Shown here piece by piece: positions 1 through 31,358 of a stretch of DNA of 64,000 nt. How positions within the stretch are numbered: position 1 is the first letter of the stretch; every line of letters begins with the position of its first letter. Origin of the DNA: Halostella litorea (GTDB lineage Archaea; Halobacteriota; Halobacteria; Halobacteriales; Natronoarchaeaceae); the NCBI RefSeq assembly GCF_004785955.1, contig NZ_ML214300.1:423223-487222 (forward strand), given 5' to 3'. The notes beneath the pieces were generated by a model, which was not told where the DNA came from, did no database searches, and worked only from the letters and a program-made list of their open reading frames with translations. The position numbers and the translations under genes are program-made.

Positions 1-22
1 CCCGGAAGCCGGGATTTCGCCC

Positions 23-862
23 ATGAGCGACCGCATCGTCGGCGGGCTCGTGGACCAGTCGACCGTCGCGGACCGCGTCGAAACCGGCGCGGCTCCCGAC
101 TGGGTCGCCGAACACTGGCACTCCTTTCGCGACGGGCTGCTGGGCGAGCGAAACGGCTCGCCGTTCCCCTGCTACTTCGGGGTCGAGTCCGTCGAGAACG
201 GCGACCCGCTGTACACGGCGGTACCGTCGATGACCGACAAGGACGCGCTGCTTGACCTCGGGCGAACGCTCCGGCGGTATCTCGACGGGTACCGCGACCG
301 GCGCGGCAACGCGTCGCTGGTCACCTTCTTCAGGCCGCCCGAGCGGGAACTGTCGGAGGCCGAGTACCACGAGCGCCTCTGGCACATCCTCCAGTTCCTC
401 CACGTGCACGACCCGAAGCCGTGGCCCGAGGACATCCCCACGGACCCGGACGACCCCTACTGGGAGTTCTCCTTCGCCGGCGAGCCGACGTTCCCGACCT
501 GCCGCGCGCCGTTCTACGGGACGCGTAAGAGCCGGTACTGCCCGGTCGGGCTGGAGATCACGTTCCAGCCGCGGGCGCTGTTCGAGGACCTCGGCGTGAC
601 CGCAGACACCGAGGCCGGCCAGCAGGCCAGGGACGCGATCCAGGACCGCCTCGAGGACTACGACGGAGTCTGCCCGCACGCCGACCTCGGCGACTGGGGC
701 GTGGACGGCGACCGCGAGTGGCCCCAGTACATGCTGTCGTCGGACGGGGACCAGGCCCCCGACGAGTGTCCGATCGCCGTCACGCGGGAGCATCCGAAGT
801 CCGGCCTGCTGCTCGACGCCGACCGCCCCGACGACTCCCTCCCGGCGGGGAGCGCCGACTGA
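23..862 (+). CDS. YqcI/YcgG family protein
   Basis: 279 residues from an ATG close to the window edge. The product resembles the YqcI/YcgG family, widespread in bacteria and haloarchaea, for which I know no established reaction. Landmarks are PCYFGVES near residue 50, the strand LVTFFRPP near 100, an aromatic block [12 protein letters not shown] near 120 and GLEITFQPR near 185. There is no signal peptide or membrane segment, so a cytosolic protein is likely. Its stop overlaps the next start (ATGA), which suggests translational coupling to the hydrolase that follows. The family call rests on recognised blocks; the function is open. Confidence 0.8.
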
Positions 863-27097: not shown

Positions 27098-27973
27098 CTA
27101 CCGTCGCCGGGTTGCGAGGGCGACGACCGCCGCCGCGACCGCGACGAGGGCGGTGAACCCGTCCATGCCGCCGCCGTCGCTCTCGCCGCCGCCGTCGGCC
27201 GTTCCGTCGCCCGTCCCGGTCGCCGTCTCGGCGGTCGTCCCGCCGTCGGCGACGGTCGCGGACGTGCTCGCCGTCGTCGTCGGTTCGGTGGTCCCGGCCC
27301 CGTCGGTCGGAGTCTCCGAGTCGGTCGGGGACGCCGGGACGGTCGTGGACGGTCCGTCGTCGGTCGGCCGATCCGTAGTGGGGGTCGTCGGCGCGTCCGT
27401 GGTCGACGACCGGCCGTCCGAGGGCGACGTCGGGTCGTCGCCGCCGCGCTCGCCGTCCCGTTCGACCGAGAGCGTGCCGGACTCCGTGTCGGGGGCGACC
27501 CGCTCGCCCCCGTCGTCGTCGATCCGGCTGACCCGGACGGAGAGGGCGGCGTCGCCGACGTCCTCCCCGCGGAGGGTGACGGACCCGAGCGCGACCGCGC
27601 CGTCCCCGGGACCGACGGTCTCGTTCACGTCGGCCGCCTTGATCCGGACGGCGTCGCCGCCGTCGATGACTTCGGTCTCGCCGAACCCGAACGCGTCGCC
27701 GGTCTCCGCGCCCGTGATCGTCGCGGCGTCGCCGTCGGCGACCCGGACGATCACCTCGAACCCGGCGACGCCGTCCGGCGTGCCCGTCAGCGAGACGCCG
27801 ACGGTCGCCCGCTCGCCGCGTTCGACGGTCGCGTCGTCGGCCACGACGGTCGGGCCGCTCGCGGCCCCGACCGGGGCGACGAGCGCGGCGGCGACCGCTC
27901 CGAGCGCCATCGCGACGACCAGCCAGCGCCGGGCGGGCCGACTACCGCGGCGGGTCGAGCGTTCAGACCTCAT
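27098..27973 (-). CDS. cohesin-domain surface protein with C-terminal anchor
   Basis: 291 residues. The signal region (RRWLVVAMALGAVAAALVAP, about 15-34) is preceded by many Arg. A cohesin-type beta-sandwich follows (about 40-172): ATVERGERATVGVSLTGTPD, GVAGFEVIVRVADG and GDGAVALGSVTLRGE. A Thr/Ser/Pro/Asp-rich stalk (about 175-265) leads to a last helix GFTALVAVAAAVVALA and RRR, like the PGF-CTERM sorting tail although the PGF itself is altered to DGF. Its start overlaps the end of the dockerin protein gene by eleven bases, so both are in one operon. It should display a cohesin on the cell surface. Confidence 0.75.
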   Translation of the reverse strand: MRSERSTRRGSRPARRWLVVAMALGAVAAALVAPVGAASGPTVVADDATVERGERATVGVSLTGTPDGVAGFEVIVRVADGDAATITGAETGDAFGFGETEVIDGGDAVRIKAADVNETVGPGDGAVALGSVTLRGEDVGDAALSVRVSRIDDDGGERVAPDTESGTLSVERDGERGGDDPTSPSDGRSSTTDAPTTPTTDRPTDDGPSTTVPASPTDSETPTDGAGTTEPTTTASTSATVADGGTTAETATGTGDGTADGGGESDGGGMDGFTALVAVAAAVVALATRRR

Positions 27974-30900
27974 CGAAGAGCGAGTTGATGTCGTCGAAGT
28001 CGACCCGTCCGTTGCCGTTGAAGTCGAACGCGCCGGGGTTGTTCGCGACGGCGTCGTCGTCGCGGTGGTCGAAGAACACGACCACGTCGTCGAAGTCGAG
28101 TTCGCCGTTGCCGTTCAGGTCCTCGTACTTCCCGTCGCCGTCCGGGTCCGTCGGCAGGTCGTTGTCGCCGACGCGGCCGACGGACGACACCGTCACGGTC
28201 CCGGTGTCGGTCGCCGCATCGATGGCCGCGCCGCCGTCAGCGTCGAGCGCGTCCGTTTGCAGCGTCACGCCGGTCGACCCCTCGGCGTTGAGCGCGACGG
28301 TGAGCGTCGCCAGTCCCACGTCGCTCGCGCCGCTCTCGACCTGGTCGTCGATGTCGGAGGCCGCCAGCGTCACCGACGAGCCGTCGTCCGCGACCGACAC
28401 CTCGCTCACGTCGGCCCGGAACGCGTCGGCCAGGGTCGCGTCCTCAATGGCGGCGACGCCGGTGTCGTCGACGGTCACCGTCACGTCGAACCCGGCGAGG
28501 CCCTCGGGCGCGTTCGACAGGGATAGCTCGGCGGGCACGGTCCCGCCGACGCCCCCGTTCTCGGGGAACGTCACCGACAGCGTCGGCGTCGACCCGCCGT
28601 CGCCGCCGGTGCTCGGGTCGTAGGAGTCGAACAGGCCGAAGGAGCTATCGAAGTTGGAGGTGACGGGGATCGACGGCTCCCCGTTGACGTTCGAACCGCT
28701 GTCCGTGACGCCGCCGCCGAGGCGGAGGTCGGTGCCGAGGCCCGACGCCAGGTCGTCGAGGTTGGCCGTCGCCTCGCTCGGCGCGGCGGCGCTCCCGAGC
28801 AGGATCACGGCCCCGCCGTCGGCGGCGAACTCGGTGAGCGTCGTCACGTCCTCGGCGGCGAACGCCGACGCGGGCGTCGTGACGAGGACCGCCCGGGCGT
28901 CGGCCAGCCGGGACTCGTACGAATCGTTGACCTGTTCGAGGTTCAGGCCGACGCCCTCCAGGTAGCGCTGGTAGTAGGCGGCGTCCTCGCCGGAGAGCGC
29001 GTAGTCGACGCCGAACTGGCCGTGCCCGCCGTCGATCAACACGTCGCCCGAGCGCTCGGAGAGGTGGTCGATGAGGTTCGACAGGAACGCGAAGTTCCCG
29101 TAGCCGCTGGTGTCGACGGCGAAGCCCTCCGCGGCCTCGTAGCTCTCGTCGACGAACGGCGAGCCGACGAGCGCGACGTTCGCGGCGTCGTCGACGCCGA
29201 CCAGCGGGGTGCCGTCCCCCGCGGCGACCGGCGCGCGGCCGTCGAGCGACCCGTCCGCGCTCGCCACCGCAGCGGCGTCGGGGAAAAAGAGTTCGTCGAC
29301 GGGGCCGTTGCGGACCGTGGCCGCTTTCGAGATGTCGCTCTCGGCCCAGAGGCCGCGCCCCGCGGTCCGAGCCGCGTTCTCCAGTTGCCAGAACTCGTCG
29401 TGGCGCGCGAGCGTCGAGCCGTACGACCGGGCCAGCCCGTCCTCGATCAGCCGGGCGTTGTAGGTCGTGTCGCGGTTGCCGTCGCCGGACGCGTCGTAGT
29501 CGGCGTACGCGAGCACGCGACCGTACGGGTCGGTGAGTCCCTCGTTCTCGTCGAAGTAGATGTCGACGGTCGCGCCGGAGAGCGCCGACTCGGCGAACGA
29601 CGTCGCCTCGTTGGCCCACTCGACGAGGTAGGGGTACTCGACGTCGGAGCCGCCGCCCCCGCCGAAGTACGGGAACGAGGTGTCGAACCGCGAGGTATCG
29701 AACTGGAAGTTCCCGCTCCCGTCGACGACCTGCGCGTCGTTGAACCGGAACGGCGCGCCGGCCGCTTCGAGGATTGCGTTCGACGCCGCGGTTTTGTCGT
29801 GGTCATCGAAGTCGGACTTCCCCGTCACGTAGACGGCCCCGCCGTCGTCGACGAACGACGCGAGCGCGTCGAGTTCGGCGTCCGAGGGCTGCTGTGGCTG
29901 GCTGCAGGCGACGAGGTCGACGTCGGAGAGGGTGCCGTCAAGCGAGTCGACCGCCGAGACCGAGTAGCCGGCCCCTTCGGCGTTGCTCACGAAGTCCGAG
30001 AAGCTGTCGAAGCCGTCGAACTGGCCGTTGTCGTACCAGGCGACCGTCGCGTCGCCCCCGGTCAGGTCGTCCCAGACGTTCAGGACGAAGTTCGAGCCGT
30101 CCGAATCCAGACCGTCGTTGTTGACGAGGAAGGAGCCGACCGCCGCGACGCTCCCGTCGACGGCGGCCAGCGGGACGTCGGCGTCCGGGTAGCTGACGGC
30201 GTCGCCGTTGCCGTCGGCGTCGCTGATCGTCGATCCCTCGGGGGCCAGCACCGCCGTCGTCGCTCCGTCGGTGTAGGGCGACCCGTCGGGGGCGATCAGG
30301 CTCGTCCCGGAGTAAAACGACAGCGCGGAGACGGGACGGACGCCGCTCGTCGTCTCGTCGTAGCTCAGTCCCTCCCACTCCTCGGGGCGCTCCGCGCTCG
30401 CCGCGCTGGCCGACTCCGGCGTGTCGACCCCGAGCACGCGGACCGTCTCCTGCGTGCCGTCCTCGAACTCGACGTCGAACGTGTCGCCGTCGGCGACCGA
30501 GACGACGTCGACGGTGTAGCGCTGGCTCGGGTCGAGCCCCGGCCCCGTCGCGATCCCCTCGCGGTCCTCGAAGTACGGGAAGCTATCGTTGAACTGGCCG
30601 GTCGTGGGGACGTACTCGACGCCGGCGTTGTTCGTCCCGTCGACGACCTGCGCGTCGTTGAACCGGAAGGGGACGCCGAGCGCCGAGGCGACGGCGTTGA
30701 TGTTCGCCGTCTCGTCGTAGTTGTCGAAGTCGGACTGGTGGTGGAGGAAGACGGCCCCGCCGCCGCTGGCGAACGACGTGAGCGCGTCGATTTCAGCGTC
30801 GGAGAAGGCGTTGGAGGGCGACGTGATCACGACCGCGCTCGCCCCGTCGAGGTCGGCCGTCAGGTCGCCGGTCGCCTGCACGTCGTAGCCGTTCGACTCG

Positions 30901-31358
30901 GCGTAGGACTCGAACTGCCCGAACGACGCGAGGTCGTAGAACTGGCCGTGGCCCTCGTCCCAGAGCACCGTCCCGCTGCCGGCCAGGTCGTCCCAGACGT
31001 TCAGGACGAACTCCTCGTTCCCGGTCGCGAAGTCCTGGTCGTCGTCGACCAGCATCGTGCCGAAGCCGGCGACCGACCCGTCGACGCCGACCAGCGGGAT
31101 AGGCGTGCCGTCGGGGTAGCTGACCGCGTCGCCGTTGCCGTCGGCGTCGGATATCGACGCCGCGTCCTCGGCCCACACCGCGACCACCGAGTCGTCGGTG
31201 AGCGGTTGCTCGCTGCCGTTCAGCAGCGAACCGGTCGAGTCGAACGCGAGGTCGGCGATGGTGGTTGCGTATCGGGACGCCGTCGTATCGAGCGCCGCGC
31301 TGGCCGTCCCGCCTGCGGAGGCGGCGGCGAGCGTGGCGAGGAAGGTTCGTCGCCTCAC
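27963..31358 (-). CDS. secreted split-thermonuclease, cohesin and dockerin protein
   Basis: 1131 residues from a GTG. MRRRTFLATLAAASA is a twin-arginine-like signal. A Rossmann-like domain (about 60-265) and its duplicate (about 340-572) share ISDADGNGDAVSYPD and PFRFNDAQVVDG; a third, more distant copy lies at about 690-905. A staphylococcal-nuclease fold is split: the first half at about 280-325 has VRVLGVDTPE (Arg307, Asp312, Glu315), and the second at about 572-675 has DPYGRVLAYAD (Arg614). These equal the known catalytic residues. Next come a cohesin (about 905-1055) and a C-terminal dockerin with two calcium-type loops (LNGNGELDFDD and DFNGNGRVDFDD). Likely an extracellular nuclease in a cohesin-dockerin assembly; nuclease activity is inferred. 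Confidence 0.8.
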   Translation of the reverse strand: MRRRTFLATLAAASAGGTASAALDTTASRYATTIADLAFDSTGSLLNGSEQPLTDDSVVAVWAEDAASISDADGNGDAVSYPDGTPIPLVGVDGSVAGFGTMLVDDDQDFATGNEEFVLNVWDDLAGSGTVLWDEGHGQFYDLASFGQFESYAESNGYDVQATGDLTADLDGASAVVITSPSNAFSDAEIDALTSFASGGGAVFLHHQSDFDNYDETANINAVASALGVPFRFNDAQVVDGTNNAGVEYVPTTGQFNDSFPYFEDREGIATGPGLDPSQRYTVDVVSVADGDTFDVEFEDGTQETVRVLGVDTPESASAASAERPEEWEGLSYDETTSGVRPVSALSFYSGTSLIAPDGSPYTDGATTAVLAPEGSTISDADGNGDAVSYPDADVPLAAVDGSVAAVGSFLVNNDGLDSDGSNFVLNVWDDLTGGDATVAWYDNGQFDGFDSFSDFVSNAEGAGYSVSAVDSLDGTLSDVDLVACSQPQQPSDAELDALASFVDDGGAVYVTGKSDFDDHDKTAASNAILEAAGAPFRFNDAQVVDGSGNFQFDTSRFDTSFPYFGGGGGSDVEYPYLVEWANEATSFAESALSGATVDIYFDENEGLTDPYGRVLAYADYDASGDGNRDTTYNARLIEDGLARSYGSTLARHDEFWQLENAARTAGRGLWAESDISKAATVRNGPVDELFFPDAAAVASADGSLDGRAPVAAGDGTPLVGVDDAANVALVGSPFVDESYEAAEGFAVDTSGYGNFAFLSNLIDHLSERSGDVLIDGGHGQFGVDYALSGEDAAYYQRYLEGVGLNLEQVNDSYESRLADARAVLVTTPASAFAAEDVTTLTEFAADGGAVILLGSAAAPSEATANLDDLASGLGTDLRLGGGVTDSGSNVNGEPSIPVTSNFDSSFGLFDSYDPSTGGDGGSTPTLSVTFPENGGVGGTVPAELSLSNAPEGLAGFDVTVTVDDTGVAAIEDATLADAFRADVSEVSVADDGSSVTLAASDIDDQVESGASDVGLATLTVALNAEGSTGVTLQTDALDADGGAAIDAATDTGTVTVSSVGRVGDNDLPTDPDGDGKYEDLNGNGELDFDDVVVFFDHRDDDAVANNPGAFDFNGNGRVDFDDINSLFDEV

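Follow-up and report, generated by a model that had tools for sequence, protein, structure and literature searches.

A secreted haloarchaeal thermonuclease likely to host a complete domain in the Omega loop of its nuclease fold

Described nucleases and the Halostella protein

Staphylococcal nuclease (SNase) is a founding model of protein folding. Its Omega loop joins the stretch after strand 3 (bearing R35, D40 and E43) to helix 1. In the classical nuclease-T, the chain is cut at residues 48-49, inside this loop. Nuclease-T and the Delta+PHS form resemble the protein described here in that the same loop is broken or altered and the fold survives, but both are laboratory forms in which nothing is inserted. 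SNase still folds when residues 44-49 of the Omega loop are deleted, as shown by Delta+PHS, a form in wide use (PMC8301334; PMC3227005). Taniuchi and Anfinsen (1969, cited in PMC2680633) rebuilt SNase from separate fragments.

Domain insertion into an SNase-like fold is known from eukaryotes. SN5 of Tudor-SN/SND1, the extended Tudor, is an intracellular SNase-like OB fold that hosts an inserted Tudor domain, and its metal-binding residues are degenerate (PMC5900569). Among haloarchaea, the closest described enzyme is the secreted SNase Hvo_1477 of Haloferax volcanii, which is needed for growth on extracellular DNA: its deletion lowers growth on DNA (PMC3929857). Hvo_1477 differs from the protein studied here in being an unsplit lipoprotein of 327 aa with a lamin tail domain and no A domains described.

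We analysed a 64,000-nucleotide stretch of the Halostella litorea genome, called the window below. The nuclease gene occupies 27963..31358, the coordinates given by an earlier sequence-only reading, but it lies on the minus strand; it encodes 1131 aa in a single open frame from a GTG start at 31358. The N-terminal residues form a Tat-like signal, MRRRTFLATLAAASAGGTASA (31358-31293, minus), whose RRxFL motif is kept in homologues too. All further parts lie on the same minus strand. The first is domain A1 (aa 34-272; 30543..31259), followed by the N half of an SNase domain (aa 278-331; 30366..30527), the inserted domain A2 with its linkers (aa 332-573, about 240 residues; 29640..30365) and the C half of the SNase domain (aa 574-672; 29343..29639). 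After the nuclease come domain A3 (aa 691-917; 28608..29288), a cohesin-like domain (aa 930-1065; 28164..28571) and a dockerin-like tail (aa 1066-1131; 27966..28163). A3 and the two tail domains had been missed by the sequence-only reading. A second SNase, short and contiguous in a 215-aa frame, is encoded elsewhere in the same genome (L002, G000:C2:556748-557236).

The A domains resemble the Pfam families DUF4350, ABC_transp_aux and IFT52_GIFT. The whole protein scored 46 against the DUF4350 cut-off of 30.4 and also passed ABC_transp_aux and IFT52_GIFT, with the best stretch in A1. On the SNase-plus-insert segment alone, DUF4350 reached 20.5, which is under the cut-off; A2 is still 48% identical to A1. 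The insert had been called a duplicate of the domain preceding the nuclease, and this is correct because A2 and A1 share 48.5% identity (E 5e-57). A3 is a third and more distant copy by sequence comparison (36% identity to A1, E 2e-24). The protein does not belong with the extended Tudor proteins: its insert is DUF4350/GIFT-like by sequence and its active site is intact.

The sequence-only reading knew of no described nuclease with this layout. That was too broad with regard to SN5. However, in the literature searched, largely outside subscription journals, we found no SNase that combines a complete active site with an insert of this kind, and nothing relevant on a split haloarchaeal SNase or on the function of DUF4350. 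What may be new is an SNase that has all its catalytic residues and hosts a domain, of which relatives carry none, one or two.

Active site and predicted fold of the interrupted nuclease

The N half was recognised by the NCBIfam EcnA profile and by alignment to SNase. Its residues D290, D292, T293, R307, D312, T313 and E315 correspond to D19, D21, T22, R35, D40, T41 and E43 of SNase. The C half was recognised by Pfam SNase (PF00565) and EcnA, and contributes R614 (R87), within DPYGRVLAY, and Y646 (Y113). R307, D312, E315 and R614 sit at the residue numbers first given for them, and T313 is also in place. E315 and R614 are indeed 299 residues apart; the distance between E43 and R87 in SNase, put earlier at about 50, is 44.

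Pfam SNase matched the C half alone (E 5e-11; 43.4 bits against a cut-off of 21). EcnA (NF047969) matched both halves in two stretches, with a whole-protein E-value of 1.1e-21, but its 77.5 bits fall short of the equivalog cut-off of 180 and the protein is not filed there. The interruption falls after E43, within the Omega loop. Strands 1-3 precede the insert; helix 1, strands 4-5 (with R87) and helices 2-3 follow it.

We compared the active site across the split proteins collected from haloarchaea. The equivalents of D19, D21, T22, R35, D40, T41, E43, R87 and Y113 are kept in all 15, the window protein included. The catalytic R35, E43 and R87 and the calcium ligands D21, D40 and T41 are among these residues, in line with the earlier suggestion that a complete active site could still form. 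K84 is not conserved in the split forms, and at Y85 many of them have F or lack the residue. These residues suggest that the split SNase is probably an active, calcium-dependent secreted nuclease. It might instead fold as an SNase and no longer be an enzyme, serving as a DNA-binding or structural surface protein, much as SN5 serves Tudor-SN as a binding module. The known SNase-like domain with an insert, SN5, is catalytically degenerate, and the differences at K84 and partly at Y85 agree with such a loss. However, D21, D40, T41, E43, R35 and R87 are all retained in the 15 split forms, unlike in SN5, and we regard a non-enzymatic protein as unlikely.

We then considered whether the two halves meet. 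An AlphaFold2 model was built from an alignment of 13 split sequences only, leaving no unsplit relative there to dictate the outcome. With a pLDDT of 72, it placed three strands, the insert, a helix, two strands and two helices in the order of SNase. VIA-align superposed its residues 5..399 on SNase 7..141, covering 128 of 135 residues at 2.8 Å (Z 14.8). A second model of the nuclease-plus-insert stretch used 65 sequences, split and unsplit mixed, and reached a pLDDT of 88 (mostly 92-98 in the nuclease). It aligned with staphylococcal nuclease (PDB 1snc) over 131 of the 135 residues at 1.8 Å (Z 18.6), and differs from it in the interruption of the Omega loop by about 240 residues. Both models thus predict an SNase OB fold with three helices that aligns across the insert to SNase 7..141; AlphaFold2 leans on homologues and has SNase structures in its training, and the mixed alignment holds unsplit forms. 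Plain Foldseek aligned only about 95-106 SNase columns, and its longer matches (IMPa, PilT and others) were ignored because their rmsd was near 20 Å.

The prediction that had been proposed as a check therefore puts both halves in one SNase barrel, even from the split-only alignment, and neither model shows halves that fail to meet. The insert is also predicted to fold as a domain, while the linkers flanking it have low confidence in both models. Such linkers would suit a protein that is two chains when mature. A protease would cut the loop linkers, the halves would stay associated as in nuclease-T, and the insert would be a processing or delivery cassette; the insertion point is moreover the loop in which SNase tolerates changes or breaks. 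However, the insert is predicted to fold and is under purifying selection (see below), and we found neither a protease site nor a partner. We consider this arrangement quite improbable.

The most likely explanation is a secreted haloarchaeal thermonuclease in which the SNase Omega loop hosts a complete A domain and the halves rebuild one calcium-dependent active site. The OB-fold SNase domain would carry a whole DUF4350/GIFT-like domain in this loop, and both parts are predicted to fold back into one barrel, which would restore the normal calcium-dependent site. If the halves refold in this way, the insert would stand out from the edge of the catalytic cleft. The Omega loop borders the active site, which would place the inserted domain at its margin.

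Split and unsplit relatives and the origin of the insert

A search across the class, covering 391 genomes, gave matches in 316. At about 60 of the collected haloarchaeal loci, the two SNase halves are contiguous (DTPE..ERPEEWEGI-ESLDYLGTWGANAT) and the order is A1-SNase-A3. These proteins are direct homologues of the window protein, with A1, nuclease and A3 in the same order, but their nuclease is contiguous and their tails, assigned by eye, are mostly lamin-tail, PKD or PGF-CTERM-like. Their annotation names only a thermonuclease family, a lamin tail or a PKD domain. Homologues thus show the unsplit form, and for this reason neither half can be a chance match, a point on which the earlier proposal could have failed.

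The split form was found at 15 loci, including the window, with one inserted A domain in 13 and two in the remaining loci (L039 and L054). The insertion point is identical in all 15, between EWEGL/I and the helix starting near YLVEWANEAT; in the window protein, the SNase domain is broken after DTPE...RPEEWEGL. Judged from the matches listed and the locus architectures, at least 11 of these 391 genomes carry a split form. Within the order, it spans three families or more. Outside Halobacteria, the matches listed for 295 genomes of the phylum included no split SNase, only short contiguous ones. That the motif matches by chance, or that misassembly produced a chimeric gene, has next to no probability, and nothing was found in favour of either. 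The gene is a single open frame, the same architecture and site recur at 14 other loci, most of them from independent genomes, and the homologues rule such an artefact out.

Several relatives vary in the same region. L039:7992-12272 and L054:3074-7171 carry their two A domains in tandem, about 500 residues, in that SNase loop. L017, L025, L084 and L085 are unsplit and have a loop longer by about 10-12 residues (EWEGLGDESDGRDPDGEYPYL), like the borders of the split form; this could be what a lost insert left behind, or a stage that came before insertion. L055, L063-L066 and L046 are long unsplit relatives of 1040-1515 aa with several broken or tandem A copies before the nuclease.

We calculated dN/dS for seven close pairs of split genes and obtained values of 0.05-0.40 for both halves and the insert. 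This shows purifying selection on all three parts.

In a tree built without the insert, the split forms group with L011, L012 and L016, three proteins that are unsplit and come from the window's own genus. A single origin of all inserts, with the split forms as one clade, was rejected (AU p 0.012) because these three proteins fall beside the split L036. The insert was therefore either gained once and later lost, or gained twice. The best trees of the A domains scatter the A2 copies among the A1 copies. The A2 of L034 and L035 lies beside their own A1, the A2 of L037, L038, L050 and L087 lies beside their A1, and the window A2 groups with the A2 of L005-L007. This scatter is unsafe because of long branches, and one origin of all A2 copies was not rejected (p 0.162). 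Either repeated duplication or gene conversion with A1 would account for scattered A2 copies.

Probable surface docking and the role of the insert

The last two domains of the protein concern its location. The cohesin-like domain has no Pfam match; its name comes from the family pattern and from its pairing with the next gene, to whose domain it is related. The dockerin-like tail has two EF-hand-like loops (EF-hand_1, E 0.0011), and Dockerin_1 reached 12.3 bits in it, below the cut-off of 22.9. The next gene (27098..27973, minus) begins 11 nt inside the end of the nuclease gene and encodes a signal peptide, a cohesin-like domain, a Thr-rich spacer and a C-terminal membrane anchor. The same two tail domains occur in six other split proteins (L005, L006, L007, L034, L035 and L039). 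In all seven loci, the next gene starts no more than about ten bases from the stop codon of the nuclease and encodes a cohesin-like protein, mostly with a membrane-anchor-like C-terminus.

Because the tail domains are paired with an adjoining cohesin-like gene, this gene order suggests that the nuclease is probably tethered at the cell surface by the neighbouring cohesin-like membrane protein. The conserved pair likewise suggests a haloarchaeal cohesin-dockerin surface-docking cassette. By analogy with Hvo_1477, the docked enzyme would cleave extracellular DNA in a calcium-dependent manner, for phosphate or biofilm turnover.

What the insert does is the least certain step. The HGQ motif of the A domains (WDEGHGQF) is altered to WYDNGQF in the window A2, and the insert is therefore probably no enzyme in this protein. 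The histidine is gone from the A2 of the window and of L005-L007 and is kept by A1 and A3; the window A2 may have decayed in its own function. We prefer an inserted domain that would act as a substrate-binding or gating lid by the active site. The main rival of the lid is a neutral insertion, in which an A domain, of a kind that duplicates easily in this family, came to lie in a tolerant loop without contributing to catalysis. The varying number of inserts (0, 1 or 2), the several places of A2 copies among A1 copies, the unsplit relatives within the window's own genus and the lost HGQ histidine would all be expected from it. However, the split form is found in at least three families and the dN/dS of the insert is well below 1, which makes neutrality a doubtful, though serious, explanation.

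The lid may also belong to a wider and rather unlikely picture. In it, a catalytically competent SNase would offer its Omega loop as a natural docking site, used time and again, which A domains enter, in which they duplicate in tandem and from which they leave, and the insert would gate or direct the active site. If this is true, a modular, allosteric or substrate-selecting nuclease would have evolved at the very loop of the classical folding studies.

A natural SNase in which this loop has grown by 240 to about 500 residues, beside relatives free of any insert, offers a ready test of how domain insertion is tolerated with the active site kept. DNA is an important phosphate source for haloarchaea, and the proteins collected here point to an undescribed group of secreted multi-domain haloarchaeal nucleases together with a probable surface-docking gene pair.
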